DNA of 41,541 nt from the NCBI GenBank assembly GCA_021798975.1, contig JAJZBJ010000008.1, positions 1-41,541 of the forward strand. The letters run 5' to 3'. This DNA is from Bacillota bacterium. GTDB taxonomy: Bacteria; Bacillota; Sulfobacillia; Sulfobacillales; Sulfobacillaceae. This document shows positions 16,360 to 31,027 of the stretch, piece after piece; position 1 is the stretch's first letter, and the number at the start of each line of letters is the position of its first letter. Below the pieces are notes generated by a model. The model was not told the DNA's origin and ran no database searches. It was given only the letters and a program-made list of their open reading frames with translations. A program made the position numbers and the translations under genes.

Positions 16360-17373
16360 ATGCGGGTAGGCCGCCTGCTGTGGAAACTCATCGGATTTGG
16401 CGCCCTGGGGATCGCGGCATACCAAGGCGCCCACGCCATCCCCATGATGATTCAAACCTACCGGGCCGCGGAACTGCCGTCCTCGACGATGCCTCGGGTG
16501 CCGCAACAGGCGCCAGTCGTTCCGCCGCTATCCTCCGCATCGCCGAATCCCCACAGCGGCGCCAACACAACCACGTCCTCGTCCCATCTGCCGATTGATG
16601 CCACCTCGTCCAACTGGGCCGGTATCATACAAGCGGGCAGCCACGAGAAGAGCGTCAAGGCAACCTGGACGGTACCTCAGATTGCCGGAGCGCGGCCGGG
16701 CAGCGCGGTGGCGGAGTGGGTCGGTTTGGGCGGGATGCAAAAAGGCGAACTGATTCAAATCGGCACCATTACCACCGCTAATTCTACGGGCCAAGGCGCC
16801 ACTACAGTGTTCTGGGAAGAACTTCCGGCCTCGGCCACCCAGACGGCATCCATTCCTGCCGGCACTACCGTGACGGCCTCCATCACGCCGGCTGGACAGC
16901 GCGCCTGGCGGTTGCAGCTATTCGCCAAAGGACAGTCCAAACCGCTGATTAATAAAGTGATCGCGCTTAGCGCGCGACAGGCGGCCTCCGTAGAGACCTC
17001 GGCCGATTGGATTACCGAAGCGCCCACAACCAACCATGGCGTAGCGCCGTTGGCACCCATCGATTCCACTACCATGAGCGGCGTCCAAGCGAACGGTACC
17101 CCGCTCGCGAAGTTGAGTCCACAATCCCTCGAAACCGTCGGGTTGTATAACAATAATGGCTCGTTGGAAGCTGCCCCGACGAGTACAAAAACCAACAGCA
17201 TTCAGGTCAGCACGGTATACGGCAACCTCCCGTCATCCTCGACGAGCGGCAACGGATTTACCATCACCATTAAACCTGGCCAAGGCGGTTCCATTAGCAT
17301 CGGCGGCGGCAGCGGCTACAACGGCGGTGGGCCTGGGGACGGCGGCGGCTATGGCTATGGCGGCGGCTACTGA
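16360..17373 (+). CDS. G1-family (eqolisin-like) glutamic peptidase, catalytic Glu replaced by Asp
   Basis: This is a secreted or membrane-anchored member of peptidase family G1, acid proteases with a Gln/Glu dyad. The N-terminal hydrophobic segment (about residues 8-30) acts as signal or anchor, followed by a Pro/Ser-rich linker to about residue 80. The beta-sandwich domain contains SNWAG, WVGLGG, ELIQIGT (Gln133, the expected catalytic Gln), VFWEELP and SADWITEAP. Family members have AEW there; Asp216 replaces the expected catalytic Glu. The last about 30 residues are a Gly/Tyr-rich tail. GAGGACGG precedes the ATG. Family assignment is strong; activity is uncertain. Confidence 0.85.
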   Translation: MRVGRLLWKLIGFGALGIAAYQGAHAIPMMIQTYRAAELPSSTMPRVPQQAPVVPPLSSASPNPHSGANTTTSSSHLPIDATSSNWAGIIQAGSHEKSVKATWTVPQIAGARPGSAVAEWVGLGGMQKGELIQIGTITTANSTGQGATTVFWEELPASATQTASIPAGTTVTASITPAGQRAWRLQLFAKGQSKPLINKVIALSARQAASVETSADWITEAPTTNHGVAPLAPIDSTTMSGVQANGTPLAKLSPQSLETVGLYNNNGSLEAAPTSTKTNSIQVSTVYGNLPSSSTSGNGFTITIKPGQGGSISIGGGSGYNGGGPGDGGGYGYGGGY

Positions 17374-23181: not shown

Positions 23182-23808
23182 TCATAGGTGCAGCCATCCA
23201 TGCCCCGCCATGAGAATCATGGGAACCACGAAGACAGCCAACACATTTACCAGAAGCACAGCGGGCAGTATCGTCATCCACAGCGGATCGCGGCGGTGGC
23301 GAGCCTCTCGCTCATGGTTCAGACGGGCCTCGAGATGTTGTACGTGTGCCCGGATTTGTTCTGTAGAGAGACCATGCAGGTATCCGTGCTGCAAGAGGAC
23401 AAGACTCAGCCCCCCGTCCAGGTCGCGAAGTCTATCAATGTCGGATGTAAAACCGGACCGGCCGAGTATGGCCTGCGCTCCCTGCATGATGGGCACGGCC
23501 AGGAGGGGCTCCTCAACCGCAGCGGTCTCGACCGCCTGCCAAAAGGTAAGCTCAGCGCTAAGGAGTACCGAGACTTGCTGCCAGAACCGTGTCAACGCTT
23601 CGGCAAGCAGGCGCGGCTGCCGCCGTGTGGGCCGTCGCGTCGTGAGACTGAGCCAGGCGCTGGCCCCGGCCAGCAATCCCAACACCCCCATCTGATGGAA
23701 CAGCACCGCCCCCGGCACCACCCCCAGGACCGCCAGCCAAGCCCACTGCGGTTGTCCGCACCATATGAGCCAGGCCATCGCCGCACACCATCCCGCCAGC
23801 GCCATCAC
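23182..23808 (-). CDS. tadC: TadC-like T2SS F-domain membrane protein
   Basis: This is an inner-membrane platform protein of the type II secretion F-domain class, the TadC position in tight-adherence pilus loci. The 208-residue protein has N-terminal hydrophobic helices (about residues 3-60), a cytoplasmic helical domain (LAEALTRFWQQVSVLLSAE, then a LRDLDGGLS segment) and a C-terminal helix (ILPAVLLVNVLAVFVVPMIL). It is short for TadC. It starts with GTG at 23808 or ATG at 23805; both overlap the tadB stop. It is the last gene of the operon and converges on glcD. Confidence 0.7.
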   Translation of the reverse strand: MMALAGWCAAMAWLIWCGQPQWAWLAVLGVVPGAVLFHQMGVLGLLAGASAWLSLTTRRPTRRQPRLLAEALTRFWQQVSVLLSAELTFWQAVETAAVEEPLLAVPIMQGAQAILGRSGFTSDIDRLRDLDGGLSLVLLQHGYLHGLSTEQIRAHVQHLEARLNHEREARHRRDPLWMTILPAVLLVNVLAVFVVPMILMAGHGWLHL

Positions 23809-24512
23809 CGCTGCATCGCCTCCCGGCGCTCATGATGAGCCAAAATGGAGAACACCACCGCCGTGGCGACCCCAACCCCCGCCAATGTGCCCCCACCCAG
23901 CGGTGAGCCCGCCAACGTGCGATAAAAACTCGGCACGGCCACCCGGAATATGCCCAGCACTCCCCACGGAGCGAAGGCCAGCACCACGACAGTAGCGCGC
24001 TGGGCCGCCTCCTCCAATTGCCTCCCGTGCCGCCGTGCCTGGTCCCCGTGCACGGCATCTACCGCCCACGCCAGGAGGGGGGACAGCGACCCGCCATAGC
24101 GATGCACCACCCGTACCACGCGGCTGACGAAACTGAGCGCTGAAATCTGATAACCGGCCGCCACCTGCGCCAGCACTCTCTCTCCGGCATCCGCTCCGCG
24201 CAACGGAGACCGGTACCCCATCTCCTGCAGAGCCCCGGCCAGCGTTCCCCGCACTCTCAGCAATTGGTCGAGGCGGACAAGAAACAACAAGGCCGCCTCC
24301 TCATCGCGGTCCCGACTCGCGGCAAACCGCCGGGCGGTGACTAACTGGTTCCATCCGATGGCCGTCAATAAGCCGCCAACCATCACGCCTGGGGACTGAA
24401 GAAGCAGACCCCAGCCCGCAAAGGCGGCCAGCGGCCACCAAAGTCCGCCAGTCAACCACACCCAAACCGCACTCCCGGCGAAAGTCGCCCATACCACGCT
24501 GCCCGCCATCAT
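23805..24512 (-). CDS. tadB: TadB-like T2SS F-domain membrane protein
   Basis: TadB pairs with TadC to form the membrane platform on which the TadA ATPase acts. The 235-residue protein has two N-terminal helices, a cytoplasmic F-domain (ALLFLVRLDQLLRVRGTLAG, GALQEMGYRSP) and C-terminal helices (about residues 160-225). The ATG at 24512 shares ATGA with the tadA stop. Sequence divergence is high; the call rests on topology, the F-domain pattern and its place next to tadA. Confidence 0.7.
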   Translation of the reverse strand: MMAGSVVWATFAGSAVWVWLTGGLWWPLAAFAGWGLLLQSPGVMVGGLLTAIGWNQLVTARRFAASRDRDEEAALLFLVRLDQLLRVRGTLAGALQEMGYRSPLRGADAGERVLAQVAAGYQISALSFVSRVVRVVHRYGGSLSPLLAWAVDAVHGDQARRHGRQLEEAAQRATVVVLAFAPWGVLGIFRVAVPSFYRTLAGSPLGGGTLAGVGVATAVVFSILAHHERREAMQR

Positions 24513-25702
24513 AGCCGCACGTCCCGAGTCAAGCCGGCACCCGTCCACCGCCACAGCACATGGAATTCGCCGGACTGCACGGCCGTCACCGTGTCGATGC
24601 GCCGAAGGCCATCCGGGTCGCGGATTAAGTAGACGATGATATCCACGGCATCCATAATCTCATCGCGCAGCGCGTCAAAGGACAGACCGCTTCCTCGCTG
24701 CAGGGCCAGGCGCGCCAGCCGGTTAATGGTGCGATGCCCCCCGCCTCCGCTATGGACGGTGCAGAGACTGCCCGGATGCCCGCTGGCCATGGCCTCCACC
24801 AAGTCGAGGGCCTCGCCCCCGCGCACTTCGCCTACAATGATACGGTCCGGACGCATCCGTAGAGCATCAGACACCAATCGCTTGAGCGTAAACTCCCGGA
24901 AGGTCTCCAACCGCACCACATTGTCATGCTCGATTTGCAATTCCCGGACATCCTCAATGGTCACGAGCCGTTCATCAGCCGGTATCGTCTGCGCGAGCAA
25001 CCGCAACAGGGATGTCTTGCCGCTGGCCGCCCCGCCCGCAATAATCAGATTGCGGCGCTCAGCCACCAGCCGCGTCAAGTCCTCCCAGACTTCGCGACTC
25101 CACGCGCCGGAGCCCAGACAGTCCTCTAACGTCAACGGTTGCATGGGTGCTCGACGGATGGTAATGCTGGGGCGGTCACTGACCGGCGGGAGTGCACAAT
25201 GGATGCGCGACCCGTCACTCAGTCTGGCGTCGCACAGAGGATTTTCCGTATTGAGTTCGCGCCCAGCCCGGTGGGCAATCCGGCGGGCTAAGTCCGCTAC
25301 ATCATCCGCGTCCGCAAAGGCGGTTGCTCGCTCCATCCGCCCTTGCCGCTCCACGAACACCTCTTGGCCGTTAACCATGATTTCCGTAACCGACTCGTCC
25401 ACCAGCAGCGCGTCGAGAGGACCCAGCCCGGTAATCCGGTTAATCAGGGAACGGCGGTAGAAAGCCCGTAGATGCTCGGGACAGGAATCATCTGCCGTCA
25501 CCACCTCGTCGACGGCCATTTCCAAGCCGCGCACCCGTTCGGCATCCCATACCAAATGCGAGAGACGGTCTGGGTGGCGTTCGGTCAGCTCTGCCATCCA
25601 CCGGGTCAAGACCGTCTGGAAATCGCTCTCGACATCCTCCGCCGCTCCCATCCATGGCCGCTTCGCGGTTCCATCGCCGGGTGCCCATAGAAAGTCTGTC
25701 AA
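24509..25702 (-). CDS. tadA: TadA/CpaF-family secretion ATPase
   Basis: This hexameric ATPase drives pilus assembly or secretion. The 397-residue protein has the CpaF N-terminal segment GLGPLDALLVDESVTEIMVNG, Walker A GGAASGKTS (about residue 224), the Asp box TIEDVRELQI, Walker B IIVGEVRGGEAL (about residue 286) and the His box in ASGHPGSLCTVHS. The start is TTG at 25702, sharing TTGA with the upstream stop, with AAGGGG 7 nt before it. It is a clear CpaF relative rather than a VirB11 ATPase, although VirB-type genes lie upstream in the same operon. Confidence 0.9.
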   Translation of the reverse strand: MTDFLWAPGDGTAKRPWMGAAEDVESDFQTVLTRWMAELTERHPDRLSHLVWDAERVRGLEMAVDEVVTADDSCPEHLRAFYRRSLINRITGLGPLDALLVDESVTEIMVNGQEVFVERQGRMERATAFADADDVADLARRIAHRAGRELNTENPLCDARLSDGSRIHCALPPVSDRPSITIRRAPMQPLTLEDCLGSGAWSREVWEDLTRLVAERRNLIIAGGAASGKTSLLRLLAQTIPADERLVTIEDVRELQIEHDNVVRLETFREFTLKRLVSDALRMRPDRIIVGEVRGGEALDLVEAMASGHPGSLCTVHSGGGGHRTINRLARLALQRGSGLSFDALRDEIMDAVDIIVYLIRDPDGLRRIDTVTAVQSGEFHVLWRWTGAGLTRDVRL

Positions 25703-26667
25703 CGCTCCACCCCTTTCCTATGCCGAAACGGTGCCCACCATCGCGATCGCGATGCCCCAGAGACAGTCTCCTCCGATGCCGGGGAAGCCAGCGAGACAAC
25801 CCGCCCCAACCGCCGCTCATCTTTGGCCCATGCCGGCAGGCCATCTTCGGACACCATCCAGCATTCCAACTGCGGCTGATAGAGGCGAACCATCTCCCAC
25901 GTCCGCCGAAACGCCGCCTCGGGAGTCGTGGCTGCAGCCCAAAAGAGCACCGTGGCCATGTGAGGCAGGATCGCTGCTGCGCGCTCATCGGCAATTCGTC
26001 CGCCCAACCACCAACCCTGCCAGTCCCACCCCCCCCGAATCCAGCCGCGTATTTGATCCAGCCCGGGGCGCACCATACCCGGAAGCCAAGGCGGTGCTGC
26101 AGGCACGAGTAGGCCCCAGCCGTTTTGCATCGGCCTCAGAGTGCTGGGAACTTCCATGCGCTCGATGCGGGATGAGGCGAGAGCCAGTGAGAGAGACCCT
26201 AAGCCCCAATCGTTGTCCACCAAGAGGCCGTTTGTCCCGTAGCGGCCCGACACCAGCGGAAGAAGGGTGCGTACCAAAGGCTCCGCCGCCGGATAGGGAA
26301 ACAGCGAGATGACACTCCAGACTGCGGGCAGATCCGCGAGCCCCGACACGGGGTGTCCGCACCATGTACGGAGTGCCTCTCCATCAATTTCCCCGCGCCA
26401 TATGTGGACCGCAGAGTGACGCTCCACCCACCCCGGCAGGGCCGCATCAAGGCTGACCCAGAGCAATACAGGTCGGTCCGGCGGATTCTGGCGCAACCAT
26501 TCCAGAGCCTCTCCAAAGTCATGCAGGCTCTCCCCCAACAGCACGCGCTGCGCACTCTGCCACAAGGGCAAGACCTCCGCCCAGGTGCTGGCCACCTGAA
26601 TATCAATAGACTCGATCTGGCCAACAAAACGGTCCACCCCGGCGTGCCCGCTGGCTACCACAATCAC
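25699..26667 (-). CDS. TadZ/CpaE-like protein lacking a P-loop
   Basis: The 322-residue protein has no family hit I can name with certainty. Its middle (LLVDNDWGLGSLSLAL) strongly recalls the second conserved block of TadZ/CpaE ATPases (LLVDxDxxxGxxxxxL). The stretch where the deviant Walker A should be reads ISLFPYPAAEP, with no GKT/GKS. The N-terminal about 110 residues look like a degenerate receiver-like domain. The place between CpaB and TadA is the usual TadZ slot. The GTG at 26667 shares GTGA with the cpaB stop. I infer a scaffold or polar-localisation role without ATP hydrolysis. Confidence 0.55.
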   Translation of the reverse strand: MIVVASGHAGVDRFVGQIESIDIQVASTWAEVLPLWQSAQRVLLGESLHDFGEALEWLRQNPPDRPVLLWVSLDAALPGWVERHSAVHIWRGEIDGEALRTWCGHPVSGLADLPAVWSVISLFPYPAAEPLVRTLLPLVSGRYGTNGLLVDNDWGLGSLSLALASSRIERMEVPSTLRPMQNGWGLLVPAAPPWLPGMVRPGLDQIRGWIRGGWDWQGWWLGGRIADERAAAILPHMATVLFWAAATTPEAAFRRTWEMVRLYQPQLECWMVSEDGLPAWAKDERRLGRVVSLASPASEETVSGASRSRWWAPFRHRKGVER

Positions 26668-27221
26668 GAATCCATCCCCAGAATCTCCACGCTACCGCGG
26701 CGGCTGATCCCCTCATATTGCATGGCTTGCCTGAATGACATGAGCACGCTGATGCTGGGGTTGGCGCCCACCTGCGCACTAACCGCCACCACCGGGACAG
26801 GGCCAGACTGCCATGCCACAGAGCCCGGATATCGAACCAGCACATCGACCGACGAGCCAACGCGGGCAATGCGCGCGTCCGCGGCTGAGGCCGGGGTCAC
26901 GGCAACCGTAACCCGTGTCGCCGCCACACCTCCCAGCACCGCTGGGGATAACACCTGGCCGGGTTCCAGCGGCACGCGTGCCACCCCCGTCACCTGATTG
27001 ACTTTCACGGCCCTCAAGGCTGACTCCGGCACCCAGCGCCAATCCTGCCGCGAGACCGTTTGTCCTGCGGCCACAAAGCGCGTCACCACGGGAACCATGA
27101 CCCGGGAAGGGGAGAGTCCGGCCTTTGGGGCGCGCACCATGCTGAGTACTCCAAACACCATCGCACTGGCCAAAAAGGCCACCGCTCCGGGACGAGACTT
27201 AATCCGCTCAGTTATGGACAT
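26664..27221 (-). CDS. cpaB: CpaB/RcpC-like SAF-domain protein
   Basis: CpaB/RcpC proteins of Tad systems have an SAF domain and act at the outer side of the membrane. The 185-residue protein has one N-terminal transmembrane segment (about residues 13-31), an SAF domain (VAAGQTVSRQDW, VPLEPGQVLSP) and an RcpC-like strand region (VTVAVTPASAADARIARVG, then VDVLVRYPG). The ATG at 27221 gives the expected MSITERIKSRPG start and overlaps virB4 by 14 nt. Its Shine-Dalgarno site is weak, consistent with coupling. Confidence 0.75.
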   Translation of the reverse strand: MSITERIKSRPGAVAFLASAMVFGVLSMVRAPKAGLSPSRVMVPVVTRFVAAGQTVSRQDWRWVPESALRAVKVNQVTGVARVPLEPGQVLSPAVLGGVAATRVTVAVTPASAADARIARVGSSVDVLVRYPGSVAWQSGPVPVVAVSAQVGANPSISVLMSFRQAMQYEGISRRGSVEILGMDS

Positions 27222-28929
27222 GCGCACTCGCCTCCTCGCCCCGCCCGGACGCCAGCAATATCTCCTCTCGGGAAGCGACAACCCGAAACGGCAGGTGGTC
27301 ATCGTGAAGAAGCAAGAGCCCTTCTCCCACCCCAGCATTGGCCACCTGCTCCAGCTCTCCATCATGGAGATGCAAGACCTGCTGCGCTTCCGCGAGACTG
27401 TCCGGATGCTGACGCAGCAGCATCACCAGAGGGGCATTATGCAAACACACTGACGCAGCTCGACTGCGCGTAAAGTCACCAATGTCCTGCGAAATCAGGG
27501 ATATCGCGCAACCCCTTTTGCGCGCCCGGCGGAACAACTCCTCCAGATACGGGGCGGTCGAGTCATCTGTAAGCAGATGCCACGACTCGTCGAATATCAC
27601 TAACCGCCGGCCCTGTTCGTGTCCCATCCGTCGCATGATCCACTCGGTGAGCGCCAGGTATACAGCTCCGCGCATGCCCGGAGCCATCCGACTCACATCG
27701 AACACCTCGAATGGTTCCATGCCATGATGGCTCGACGATCCCGCCATGCGGACCCAACGCTCATAGACCAGTTGAAGGCGCTCCTTCGCCCTCCCGCTTT
27801 CCTGCCCCACCTGCGTGGCCCACTGCTCCACCAAATCGTGGCCAGTGCCGCCTCGCGGGGTGAACTTGCCCCCCTCCATGCCGCGCGCCGCTCGCCATAG
27901 CGCATCCCGGACTATCCCCCCGAACTCTTCCATCAGCCCCCCATCCAGCCGGGTCAGGAACCGCAGCAGAAAGTCACACTGGCGGTCGAGCTCGTCCGGT
28001 CCCCGGCCGCCTTCGAAGCTAAAGGGATTGAACGGAAACTCTGTGCGCCCCTCGTGGCTCTCGCCCAGGTTCCAGACATGTGCGCCCGCGCGGTCGAGGG
28101 TGCGATATTCGCCCTCCGGATCGATTACGGTAACTGCCAGTCCCCGGTACCGGGCTCGGACCGCTTCCAGCTTTGCGGCAAAGCTTTTGCCTGCGCCCGA
28201 CCAGCCGACCGTGATGGAATGAGGAGAGGACAACGCGAACCGGTCCACGATGACGAAGTTCCGACTCCGGGTGTTAACCCCGAACACCTGCCCCTGCGCG
28301 TGGACTAAGTCGCGCGACGAGAAGGGAAACAGAGTGGCCCAGGCCCGGCTGTCCATTTCCCGCACCTTATCCACCGGTTCACCCAAGGGGAGATTGCGCC
28401 GCAGGCCCAACTGCTGCTGGTACTGCAGCGGCCGAAGCACCAGCATCATGCCCTGGGCCAAGCTCTCCAAAATCCGGCTGGAACGCTCGAGGTCCTCGCC
28501 GTTCTCAGACCAGAGGCTGAGCGTCATACCAACCTCCAGCATGCGGGTTTCACCGCGGGCCAGACCGAACCGCGCTTGTTCCGCATCCTCGATAGCCACC
28601 ACCTGTTCCGCACGTGTCAGACGACCGCGCTTCTGGTCGGATTCCGTGGATCCGCGACTCCAAATCATGCGCCGATTCATGGATTGCACCACGTCCTCGG
28701 TGGCAAGCGGCGCACAATGAATGGCCAATGTCAAGGGATGCGGGAACCCCAGCAGCGGTTCCATCCAGCCTGGCTGGACGGTGCGGGGATATCCGACTAC
28801 GGTATAGCTCTTGACACGCTGCTTTCCCACCTCCGCATATCCGGGAAACAGTTGCACATGGGACGGCCAAAGCACGTCCATGGCATCTCTTTTAGCGCTG
28901 GTTGCACATCGCCTCAATCCCACGCCCAA
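27208..28929 (-). CDS. virB4: VirB4-family type IV secretion ATPase
   Basis: VirB4 is the conserved motor ATPase of type IV secretion systems. The 573-residue protein has the family N-terminal TVVGYPRTVQPGW, Walker A GWSGAGKSF (about residue 241), IDPEGEYRTL, and Walker B LVIFDESWHLL (about residue 444) followed by SLISQD. It is short for the family because the usual extra N-terminal domain appears to be in the separate protein upstream. Start is uncertain: TTG at 28929 or 28917 keeps KRDAMDVLWPS, which fits homologues; the first ATG is at 28881. It overlaps the upstream gene by 16 nt. Confidence 0.88.
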   Translation of the reverse strand: MGVGLRRCATSAKRDAMDVLWPSHVQLFPGYAEVGKQRVKSYTVVGYPRTVQPGWMEPLLGFPHPLTLAIHCAPLATEDVVQSMNRRMIWSRGSTESDQKRGRLTRAEQVVAIEDAEQARFGLARGETRMLEVGMTLSLWSENGEDLERSSRILESLAQGMMLVLRPLQYQQQLGLRRNLPLGEPVDKVREMDSRAWATLFPFSSRDLVHAQGQVFGVNTRSRNFVIVDRFALSSPHSITVGWSGAGKSFAAKLEAVRARYRGLAVTVIDPEGEYRTLDRAGAHVWNLGESHEGRTEFPFNPFSFEGGRGPDELDRQCDFLLRFLTRLDGGLMEEFGGIVRDALWRAARGMEGGKFTPRGGTGHDLVEQWATQVGQESGRAKERLQLVYERWVRMAGSSSHHGMEPFEVFDVSRMAPGMRGAVYLALTEWIMRRMGHEQGRRLVIFDESWHLLTDDSTAPYLEELFRRARKRGCAISLISQDIGDFTRSRAASVCLHNAPLVMLLRQHPDSLAEAQQVLHLHDGELEQVANAGVGEGLLLLHDDHLPFRVVASREEILLASGRGEEASAHVHN

Positions 28930-29513
28930 TTCACCCCCGCCGGCAAACTCTGCCCGCCGCCCAAACTCGCGTAAAGGAAACGGAACAAGGCATCGCGCTC
29001 CAGTGTCTTGATCCGGACGCCCAAGGGCTTCAGCCCCTCAGCCACCAAATCCCGGCGCCGCTCCAACTCGGCCTCCGCCTCGTCCCACAGCACTTCTCCG
29101 CGACGCATAGGACGGCTGCGGGTATCCACCCCCTGCCACGATAGGATGATAAAGAACCGCCTCCGTACCAAATGCTGGACCGATGCGGTCTCCCGCAAGA
29201 ACTCAATGTAGTCGCCCAGAGACGGGCGCAGGTGTGGCTCGATCTCATCTTCGTGACTTTTCAGTTCCCCGAGATAGTTATCGATCCGGAGGTAGTCCGA
29301 ACGCACCAGAATCTCAATCGGAAAGCTGAGCCCATTGAGGAATGCGGTATAGGCGTTGACCAGCCTTTCCTGATCTTTGTAGGACCGAAGACCAAAGTTG
29401 ACCGGAAAGGCCTCCATGACAGCCGAGAAACGGTCCCGGCCCACCAGACAGATGCTGGGCCCAATCGCTCGGATTGGAAACACTTGACGGATTTCTGCAG
29501 CCAATTCATTCAC
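28914..29513 (-). CDS. TraC-like protein, probable detached VirB4 N-terminal partner
   Basis: The 199-residue protein is soluble and mostly helical and beta mixed. AYTAFLNGLSFPIEILVRSD and LRETASVQHLVRRRFFIIL resemble the N-terminal region of TraC/VirB4-type proteins (TraC-like domain). It ends in a charged helix and directly overlaps virB4. The GTG at 29513 lies next to a GAGG; the stop of an unrelated shadow frame also falls there. It probably binds VirB4 and completes it. The family call is tentative, the T4SS link is strong from context. Confidence 0.6.
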   Translation of the reverse strand: MNELAAEIRQVFPIRAIGPSICLVGRDRFSAVMEAFPVNFGLRSYKDQERLVNAYTAFLNGLSFPIEILVRSDYLRIDNYLGELKSHEDEIEPHLRPSLGDYIEFLRETASVQHLVRRRFFIILSWQGVDTRSRPMRRGEVLWDEAEAELERRRDLVAEGLKPLGVRIKTLERDALFRFLYASLGGGQSLPAGVNWAWD

Positions 29514-29559
29514 CTCGTCATTTCATTAACGGGCATCCCACGGACACCCAGGTATTCGT

Positions 29560-29841
29560 TTATGGTAGGAACAACCGCGAAGAGAGGTAAAACCGCCCCC
29601 ATCGCCAGATCCATTGCGGCAGGCTCACGTCGCGGTGGCGAACCGTGGCCAATGCCAGCCCCGCCACAGATGCCGCGCCAAGGGCTGCCCAGGCGGGGGG
29701 CGATATATGCCGGGAACCGTGCCAGACCACCAAGTCCACGGCAGCAGCGGCCGCGATCCAAATCAGGTCAGACATCTTCAACCCGAAGAGAACTTCGGGC
29801 TCCCGCCCCAACGGGATGCTGACCACTCGGTTCATCGCCAT
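29560..29841 (-). CDS. prgI: PrgI-family membrane protein
   Basis: PrgI-type proteins are small two-helix membrane parts of Gram-positive type IV secretion systems, where they commonly precede virB4. The 93-residue protein has the N-terminal signature VSIPLGREPEVLFGLKMSDL, then two hydrophobic helices (about residues 24-41 and 50-66) and an amphipathic basic tail. The ATG at 29841 overlaps the upstream gene by 10 nt; an ATG at 29835 would give an ATGA overlap and is equally possible. There is a 46-nt gap to the next gene. Confidence 0.75.
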   Translation of the reverse strand: MAMNRVVSIPLGREPEVLFGLKMSDLIWIAAAAAVDLVVWHGSRHISPPAWAALGAASVAGLALATVRHRDVSLPQWIWRWGRFYLSSRLFLP

Positions 29842-30617
29842 GCGTATCCAGCCCCCATTCGAGATCCCATCAGACGCCGCACCTGGCCGGGGAGTTTCGC
29901 CATATACCAGAGTAGGGCCAGCTCGAGAAAGAAATCGGCCAAATGACCGCCCGCAGCAGACAACAGTTGTACTGCCAGCCAAAAGGCTCCTGCCTGAAAG
30001 GCCTGCACAAACACCACCGCGGCCAGCTCACGACTCAAAGCCGCCAGCACCGGACTATCCTCCCGCATGGCCCACCACAGGGCAAACCACGGCACGGCGG
30101 CCGTCAGCACATAGATCTCCACGGCCCGAATCGCGTAGAAGACCCCGAGATACAGCATTAAGGCCAGCATAGCCAGTGCCGAGGCCAACACCAACAGCGG
30201 CGAGAGGATGCCGGTGGGGGCTCCACTAATCTGCCAATGAGCCAGACCGGACAGAAGTCCCGAAACCACCGCGTTGTTGAGGGCGGCCAGCATCTGCACC
30301 GCCCACGCGCCACCGGCACTAATCAGAGCGGCGGTCACCAGCCGCTCCATATAGACCGGAATGGCCAATACCCGGCCCTTGGCCGTCAGACTAGGCCACA
30401 TGCTTCGCACGACCACCAGCAGCGTAGCGGTGCCGGCGAGTGTCCAGGCCAGGTCGCGGCTGTCGGCATACAACGTCATGACCGGACGCGGCCACGGCAA
30501 GGGGGCCAAAATCCACCGTTGAAATCCGCGGCCGCTCACCACAACCACCTGCTGCCAAGCCCAGCGGGATAAGGTATTGATGCCCCACACCACCGGGTTC
30601 AAAGAGGGTCCGGCCAT
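29832..30617 (-). CDS. VirB6/TrbL-like polytopic channel protein
   Basis: The 261-residue integral membrane protein has six or seven hydrophobic segments (about residues 55-80, 95-125, 125-150, 155-180, 185-205 and 215-240). That topology, its size and its place between the pilin-like gene and prgI fit VirB6/TrbL, the inner-membrane channel of type IV secretion systems. Direct sequence similarity is weak. The ATG at 30617 shares its A with the upstream stop (TAATG). The longer frame upstream runs over the pilin gene and the leader and is shadow. Confidence 0.65.
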   Translation of the reverse strand: MAGPSLNPVVWGINTLSRWAWQQVVVVSGRGFQRWILAPLPWPRPVMTLYADSRDLAWTLAGTATLLVVVRSMWPSLTAKGRVLAIPVYMERLVTAALISAGGAWAVQMLAALNNAVVSGLLSGLAHWQISGAPTGILSPLLVLASALAMLALMLYLGVFYAIRAVEIYVLTAAVPWFALWWAMREDSPVLAALSRELAAVVFVQAFQAGAFWLAVQLLSAAGGHLADFFLELALLWYMAKLPGQVRRLMGSRMGAGYAWR

Positions 30618-30850
30618 TAGGAAACCACGTACTGGATGATCTGCTTGACCACGTCGACCATCAACACCAGGCCGAGCCCCATTGCTGCCCGTCCCATTAG
30701 CTCCTTGCTTACCTGGACGGCGCGCGGCGTATGGGCCAACATGAACCGTATGCCGCCATAGACCATCACCAGCGTGAACACGCCCCCAGCCACGTCGACC
30801 AGCATGCTGGTCATTCGGGTAATGACTTGCAGGACTGCGGTATCGGGCAC
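30617..30850 (-). CDS. VirB2/TrbC-like small pilin-type protein
   Basis: This is the first gene of the T4SS-Tad operon. The GTG at 30850 has a perfect AGGAGG 7 nt upstream, giving a 77-residue protein. It has two hydrophobic helices (MLVDVAGGVFTLVMVYGGI and AAMGLGLVLMVDVVKQII) joined by a short basic loop with PRAVQVSKE. Two helices with a Gly-rich first helix and a compact loop are the VirB2/TrbC pilin pattern. A longer frame to 30946 would run through a terminator-like hairpin and is rejected. It lacks a cleavable signal peptide. Confidence 0.65.
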   Translation of the reverse strand: MPDTAVLQVITRMTSMLVDVAGGVFTLVMVYGGIRFMLAHTPRAVQVSKELMGRAAMGLGLVLMVDVVKQIIQYVVS

Positions 30851-30864
30851 CTTGGCGCCTCCTA

Positions 30865-30899
30865 GAAACAAAGTCGGTGAGGAAGATTTCCTCACCGAC
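30865..30899 (-). terminator. Terminator-like hairpin in the leader of the T4SS-Tad operon
   Basis: Arms GTCGGTGAGGAA (30873-30884) and TTCCTCACCGAC (30888-30899) are perfect 12-bp complements with a 3-nt loop. On the minus strand TTTGTTTC follows at once (30865-30872), and then the Shine-Dalgarno site of the first gene. It looks like an intrinsic terminator placed between any upstream promoter and the operon, so it may act as an attenuator. Confidence 0.65.
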
Positions 30900-30931: not shown

Positions 30932-30947
30932 CCAAATTTTCGCCACT

Positions 30948-31027
30948 ATTCGACACTAATTTCGCTCATTCCATAAGAAAAACCGCGTCACAACACGCCG
31001 TACGGCCTTATCTGACGCGATTCGACA
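30948..31027. repeat. Direct repeat ATTCGACA flanking the thioesterase terminator
   Basis: ATTCGACA occurs at 30948-30955 and 31020-31027, 72 bp apart in the same orientation, in the gap between the thioesterase gene and the T4SS-Tad operon. It could be a regulator site; two 8-bp copies alone are weak evidence. Confidence 0.3.
30978..31019 (-). terminator. Intrinsic terminator of the thioesterase gene
   Basis: On the minus strand CGCGTCA (31013-31019) pairs with TGACGCG (30984-30990), around an inner GCCGTACGGC palindrome. A run of five T (30978-30982) follows after one nucleotide. It lies 32 nt after the thioesterase stop and insulates that gene from the T4SS-Tad operon. Confidence 0.75.

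Follow-up and report, generated by a model that had tools for sequence, protein, structure and literature searches.

A conserved chromosomal operon of type IV secretion and Tad pilus genes in the Sulfobacillales

Background

We analysed a stretch of 41,541 nucleotides (hereafter the window) from a metagenome-assembled genome (MAG, 2.9 Mb, 87% complete) of the order Sulfobacillales, which has Sulfobacillus harzensis among its close relatives. In this window, ten minus-strand genes join the core of a type IV secretion system (T4SS) to the assembly parts of a Tad pilus. A comparable set is known from Sulfobacillus thermotolerans: VirB4, a relaxase, a TraG-like protein and CpaF/TadB/TadC, found on two plasmids (pL15 and pY0017) and in an integrated region, were described as a conjugation system with homologues of T4SS and type II secretion system (T2SS) proteins (PMC6803676). 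We confirmed the gene content of pL15 (NC_025041). Like the window locus, pL15 and the integrated region of Kr1 each combine VirB4/TraC, a TrbL-like protein and TadA/TadB/TadC within a single element. Unlike it, pL15 is mobile and encodes a relaxase, a linked coupling protein and a lytic transglycosylase, all three missing from the window locus, which is chromosomal and forms one operon. In pL15 the T4SS and Tad blocks are moreover about 15 kb apart, and its VirB4 belongs to another clade than that of the hybrid operon.

Other systems share different portions of the locus. The Geobacillus subterraneus plasmid pGspE55-1 carries CpaB, an ATPase in the position of TadZ, TadA, TadB, TadC, PrgI, TraC-N and VirB4, as in the window, but in two blocks with regulatory genes between them, with an M23 peptidase and on a plasmid. 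The CD1110-type conjugation systems of Gram-positive bacteria (for instance pTZC1) have the VirB4 family, PrgI, a VirB6-like protein and VirD4 in common with the window's genome, but they include a relaxase and a cell-wall hydrolase, and TadABC does not lie nearby in pTZC1 or in most of the loci examined. Canonical Tad/Flp loci present CpaB, TadZ, TadA, TadB and TadC in the same order as the window operon, but differ by their Flp pilin, TadE/F and TadV and by a TadA that falls in a separate clade.

In archaea, the chromosomal Ced system comprises VirB2, VirB6 and a VirB4 divided over two proteins, and exchanges DNA together with Ups type IV pili and without a relaxase (PMC9905601, PMC11868833). 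The window resembles Ced and Ups in combining a chromosomal putative VirB2, VirB6 and a split VirB4 with type IV pilus parts (ATPase and platform), so that its operon amounts to a Ced-like core plus a pilus motor; a relaxase is likewise absent from the operon and its scanned flanks. Ced and Ups lie in separate loci and are induced by DNA damage, whereas the window promoter carries Spo0A boxes instead, and VirD4, PrgI, CpaB and TadZ are not described for Ced/Ups. The original prediction had presented the locus as a new hybrid. The co-occurrence of a T4SS with TadABC/CpaF is in fact already known from the Sulfobacillus plasmids and is also found on the Geobacillus plasmid; a full-text literature search limited to open-licence papers returned no description of a core-chromosomal form, and it is this stand-alone, single-operon, core-chromosomal T4SS-Tad form that appears to be undescribed so far.

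Gene content and organisation of the operon

The ten genes (30850-23182, minus strand; Table 1) follow each other almost without gaps, each junction being an overlap or a short gap. Read in the sequence, the junctions are TAATG for g1/g2, ATGA for g2/g3, a gap of 46 nt between g3 and g4, an overlap for g4/g5, GTGA for g6/g7, TTGA for g7/g8, ATGA for g8/g9 and GTGA for g9/g10. The T4SS and Tad halves meet at g5/g6, where virB4 and cpaB overlap by 14 nt (27221/27208) as had been noticed beforehand. No promoter-like sequence above chance was seen within the operon.

The assignment of five genes to a T4SS and five to a Tad system was confirmed, with unequal support. On the T4SS side, g1 matches the T4SS_pilin profile PF18895 with an E-value of 9e-4 and 19.7 bits, under the curated cut-off of 26.6, and g3 is likewise slightly under its cut-off. 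The score of g4 is weak by itself (0.02), yet the gene is conserved in 39 loci and stands directly upstream of g5 in 38/38. The VirB4 encoded by g5 matches the family NF045971 under the equivalog cut-off (206.6 bits for a threshold of 325); its Walker A (GxGKS) and Walker B (DE) motifs show no variation among the aligned relatives.

On the Tad side, searches of g7 in Pfam and NCBIfam gave no sequence match. Its structural model contains a MinD/ParA/BY-kinase-like domain and an N-terminus resembling a receiver (response-regulator) domain, which is the two-domain plan of TadZ/CpaE, and g7 is thus predicted to fold as a TadZ/CpaE-like protein. Its nucleotide loop is lost in the window's family, while members of family f2 retain a GGVGVTT-type loop. 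In g8, the GKT of Walker A and the catalytic acidic and His residues are invariant among the aligned relatives. The possibility that g8 is a VirB11 was ruled out, the PDB profile E-values being 6e-91 for CpaF versus 4e-55 for VirB11. The own Pfam matches of g9 and g10 are weak or absent. For g10, the top nine PDB structural matches are all cytoplasmic T2SS-F/PilC domains, none significant singly (E-values of 0.5-2), and its assignment as TadC-like rests on such weak matches together with its position.

Several components of related systems have no counterpart in the operon. No relaxase with an origin of transfer was found in the ten genes or the scanned flanks, the rest of the genome not having been searched for relaxases; no integrase was found among the genes scanned around the operon, and no VirB1-like cell-wall hydrolase in the operon itself using Pfam. 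The absence of relaxase and integrase agrees with the original prediction. A prepilin peptidase match (PF01478) exists outside the operon in the same genome (e.g. G000:C31), and TadE genes are located elsewhere in most genomes of the order.

Table 1. Operon genes and promoter-region features of the window
Feature	Position (nt)	Strand	Support and remarks
g1, VirB2-like T4SS pilin, 77 aa, two hydrophobic stretches	30617..30850	-	PF18895; 38 order loci; dN/dS 0.04
g2, VirB6/TrbL-like membrane channel protein, 261 aa	29832..30617	-	PF19597 (TrbL_4) E 6.5e-7; 38 order loci
g3, PrgI (VirB3-like), 91 aa	29560..29835	-	PF12666 E 2.7e-5, slightly under cut-off; 38 order loci
g4, N-terminal part of VirB4/TraC as own protein, 199 aa	28914..29513	-	Weak NF045971 N-terminal match; dN/dS 0.02
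g5, VirB4 ATPase, 573 aa, CD1110-like	27208..28929	-	NF045971 E 6e-61; PDB 4ag5 VirB4 3e-50 by profile
g6, CpaB/RcpC-like SAF-domain protein, start overlapping g5 by 14 nt	26664..27221	-	PF08666 E 1.2e-5
g7, TadZ/CpaE-like, degenerate ATPase motif	25699..26667	-	AF2 model pLDDT 87; PDB fold matches
g8, TadA/CpaF secretion ATPase, 397 aa	24509..25702	-	TIGR03819 1.3e-69; PDB CpaF 6e-91
g9, TadB-like platform protein	23805..24512	-	T2SSF in 13/18 relatives, best 2e-6
g10, TadC-like platform protein	23182..23808	-	T2SSF in 3/12 relatives; fold matches
Tandem Spo0A boxes TGTCGAA-N3-TGGCGAA upstream of g1	30939..30955	-	Sequence match
Additional Spo0A box TGTCGAA	31021..31027	-	In related genera, some 168 nt upstream of g1
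12-bp perfect hairpin with T-rich tail in g1 leader	30873..30899	-	Kept in several relatives, with sequence changes
Terminator-like hairpin 3' of upstream thioesterase gene	30984..30997	-	Part of longer stem

Conservation and inheritance in the order

VirB4 was detected in 40 of the 42 genomes of the order (32/34 in the window's family and 8/8 among the remaining members). The genes virB4 and cpaB are neighbours in 38/38 loci of the order, and cpaB and tadZ likewise always are, while tadZ and tadA are neighbours in 22 of the 26 loci having both genes on the fetched stretch. The proposed search of relatives for VirB4 next to Tad genes thus gave a gene order common across the order, except that tadABC has moved in part of one family: in several of its genera tadABC is inverted, a few kb off or elsewhere, yet retained, and in G022 and G025 it lies 23-24 kb from the T4SS half. 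Upstream of the operon, a thioesterase, an amino-acid permease, a tRNA methyltransferase and gatB are found in families f1, f2 and f3, which indicates that the chromosomal site is ancestral. The ratio of nonsynonymous to synonymous substitutions (dN/dS) between the window and G006 ranges from 0.02 to 0.22 across all ten genes, corresponding to purifying selection.

Phylogenies agree with this picture. The VirB4 sequences of the order form a single clade (100/100), and the hybrid TadA sequences, including the relocated copies, form another (98/99) that is distinct from the canonical Tad clade found in these genomes. Deep branches of the TadA tree were not resolved. The original prediction could have failed on an order of genes restricted to this strain through a recent insertion. 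Such an insertion is excluded by the synteny throughout the order, and the prevalence of VirB4, the constant virB4-cpaB adjacency, the neighbours common to three families and the purifying selection all argue in the same direction. Taken together, the data suggest an operon that is vertically inherited and domesticated, that is, owned by its host, and we consider it very likely that it is a real, functional and conserved T4SS-Tad operon.

Two genomes deserve separate mention. The complete genome G035 (L057/L058) has the hybrid operon in two tandem copies, one of them with a diverged VirB4. G012 is without VirB4, hybrid TadA, canonical TadA and VirD4; the co-loss of machine parts that this might represent was given little weight, since G012 is a MAG with 5% contamination and its canonical Tad is also missing.

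Wider distribution of the pairing

Outside the order but in the same class, G047, G072 and G088 carry, in an arrangement like that of the window, VirB6, PrgI, VirB4, SAF, a gene in the TadZ position, TadA, TadB and TadC beside metG and tatD. In another class, G104 and G150 (L134/L135) have a chromosomal operon with all genes in one direction, ordered pilin, VirB6, PrgI, TraC-N, VirB4, M23 peptidase (E-value of 2.9e-21), CpaB, TadZ, TadA, TadB, TadC and TadE. This fuller operon adjoins a carbon-monoxide-dehydrogenase-like gene. Of the loci fetched around CD1110-type VirB4 genes elsewhere in the phylum, most have no TadABC nearby. In the VirB4 tree, the hybrids of f9/f39 and f47 are placed elsewhere, on long branches, so a single origin of all hybrid VirB4s finds no support there. 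Because the tree does not join all hybrids, the T4SS-Tad pairing may have arisen repeatedly, with the uncertainty that such long branches leave.

Promoter region and predicted sporulation control

TGNCGAA boxes precede g1 in 28 of the 38 loci, whereas 200 shuffles gave 5.7 on average and never more than 14; these shuffles leave relatedness uncorrected, but box positions nonetheless recur between families f1 and f2. The positions -168 and -96 are recurrent across genera. Scanning genomes for TGTCGAA-N3-TGTCGAA gave 2 to 7 sites per genome versus 0 to 3 for the reversed control, with sites upstream of g1, of the VirD4 gene in genus g8 (a handle unrelated to gene g8) and of spo0A, the gene behind one site being identified as Spo0A (PF08769, 1.5e-44). 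This heptamer, TGTCGAA, has been published as the core of Spo0A boxes (PMC3485338). The operon is probably under Spo0A control, and direct regulation is predicted from these motifs.

The hairpin of the g1 leader shows matching changes in relatives and may act as an attenuator or operator, or form a stem at the 5' end of the mRNA; the leader gave no Rfam match to a riboswitch or known RNA. Upstream of VirD4, 7 of 25 loci match a strict sigma-H-type promoter consensus, for 0.07 expected; the VirD4 gene of the window's own genome does not show the strict pattern. Genus g8 (L195, L197, L198, L211, L214) also has the tandem TGTCGAA motif ahead of genes for secreted proteins that are about 480 aa long and contain Y_Y_Y and Ig-like domains; these genes are likely additional targets of Spo0A or sigma-H.

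An unlinked VirD4 coupling protein

The absence of VirD4, as originally proposed, is true of the neighbourhood of the operon but wrong genome-wide. A chromosomal gene not linked to T4SS genes (G000:C92:50373-51851; L163:5371-6852, minus strand) encodes a VirD4-like protein of about 490 aa with a T4SS-DNA_transf domain (PF02534, 1.4e-19) and a Walker motif. It was found in 45 of 101 relatives, namely most genomes of the order and members of the class having the hybrid VirB4. VirB4 and the unlinked VirD4 are both present in 44 genomes and both absent from 51, with 5 genomes having VirB4 only, 4 of which are 59-83% complete, and one having VirD4 only. The latter is G072, which carries a hybrid VirB4 by profile search. 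We infer that the unlinked VirD4 serves the hybrid T4SS. Two more T4SSs, of the mobile kind and with their own coupling proteins, occur in the window's genome (G000:C1 and G000:C123; L070, L071), nearer to pL15 than to the hybrid.

Surroundings of the operon

Both flanks hold housekeeping genes: on one side LD-carboxypeptidase in addition to the thioesterase, amino-acid permease, tRNA methyltransferase and gatB cited above, and on the other glycolate-oxidase-like genes. No effector or immunity genes were seen adjoining the operon. Genome-wide clustering of the flanking open reading frames was too noisy for use by itself. Elsewhere in the window, positions 16360-17373 encode a putative acid-acting glutamic (G1/eqolisin) peptidase, as judged by eye.

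Proposed function and alternative explanations

The best explanation, which we hold tentatively, is a domesticated contact-transfer machine made of the T4SS core, the Tad platform and the unlinked VirD4. A single operon would supply both a T4SS core (VirB2 pilin, VirB6 channel, PrgI and two-piece VirB4) and a Tad assembly platform consisting of the TadB/TadC membrane base, the TadA rotary ATPase, CpaB and the positioning protein TadZ, and these would work with a VirD4-type coupling protein whose gene lies at another chromosomal site. Both halves would form one machine, in which the VirB parts provide the channel while the Tad parts build or retract a contact filament or replace VirB11. The machine would be expressed as cells pass into stationary phase or sporulation, and its cargo would be DNA that sister cells exchange in the manner of archaeal Ced and Ups; DNA uptake independent of ComEC is included in this explanation. 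Ced is the closest functional model, and we take intercellular DNA exchange at the stationary-phase/sporulation transition as the most likely function. The full proposal is a vertically inherited, Spo0A/sigma-H-controlled T4SS-Tad machine with an unlinked VirD4, through which sister cells of these spore-forming acidophiles would exchange chromosomal DNA on entering stationary phase or sporulation, as the native exchange route of a ComEC-less order and the bacterial counterpart of Ced and Ups; it is doubtful when all its parts are taken together.

Several observations weigh against the contact-transfer machine. The ten genes include no Flp/TadE pilin, TadF or TadV/prepilin peptidase, as had been predicted for Flp pilin and TadV; tadABC is split from the T4SS half in several genera, which makes a single physical machine less certain; the Spo0A box is absent upstream of g1 in genus g8; and the VirB4-VirD4 association, although its Fisher value is very small, was computed on counts that ignore relatedness.

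The main rival, itself rather unlikely, is a T4SS that exports effector or matrix proteins instead of DNA to neighbours or to the medium via VirD4. A VirD4 without a nearby relaxase, the situation met here, is typical of effector T4SSs, and the Spo0A-type motif also precedes the secreted Y_Y_Y/Ig-like proteins of genus g8. The latter, however, look Sec-exported from their signal-peptide-like N-termini and are unlinked to the locus, and the lack of effector and immunity genes beside the operon also disfavours protein export. The relocation of tadABC shows that the T4SS and Tad halves can be uncoupled on the chromosome, and would fit a T4SS and an accessory Tad pilus that are separate machines on a shared promoter, both serving attachment. 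We regard this as unlikely: CpaB and TadZ never leave virB4, the relocated tadABC is not lost and remains in the hybrid TadA clade, most of these genomes have a separate canonical Tad locus with TadE, and the T4SS-Tad pairing recurs on plasmids.

Homology of the parts to CD1110-type conjugation systems and the copies on mobile genetic elements in the same genomes could also be read as marks of a functionless remnant, left by a plasmid or an integrative conjugative element. Such a remnant is very improbable in view of the low dN/dS values, the invariant catalytic motifs and the same site being occupied in three families. Finally, transformation can rely on Tad-like pili in some Gram-positive bacteria, and the operon might on that ground encode a transformation pilus feeding a ComEC channel. 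ComEC (PF03772) was detected in none of 12 genomes of the order, compared with 10 of 14 control genomes, which makes ComEC-dependent uptake and classical competence unlikely and leaves this the least probable of the explanations; DNA uptake of this kind, one of the functions first envisaged, is therefore not retained. The lack of ComEC from every genome of the order tested (n=12) is unusual among bacteria at large.

Conclusions

Conjugation machines are normally a property of plasmids and transposons. If our preferred explanation of a domesticated contact-transfer machine is true, the Sulfobacillales would possess one as an order-wide chromosomal fixture, with a pilus motor added and wired to sporulation, that is, a bacterial case of a machine domestication known until now from archaea. 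The locus poses testable questions: whether the VirB and Tad proteins form one apparatus, and whether DNA is exchanged without ComEC in this order.

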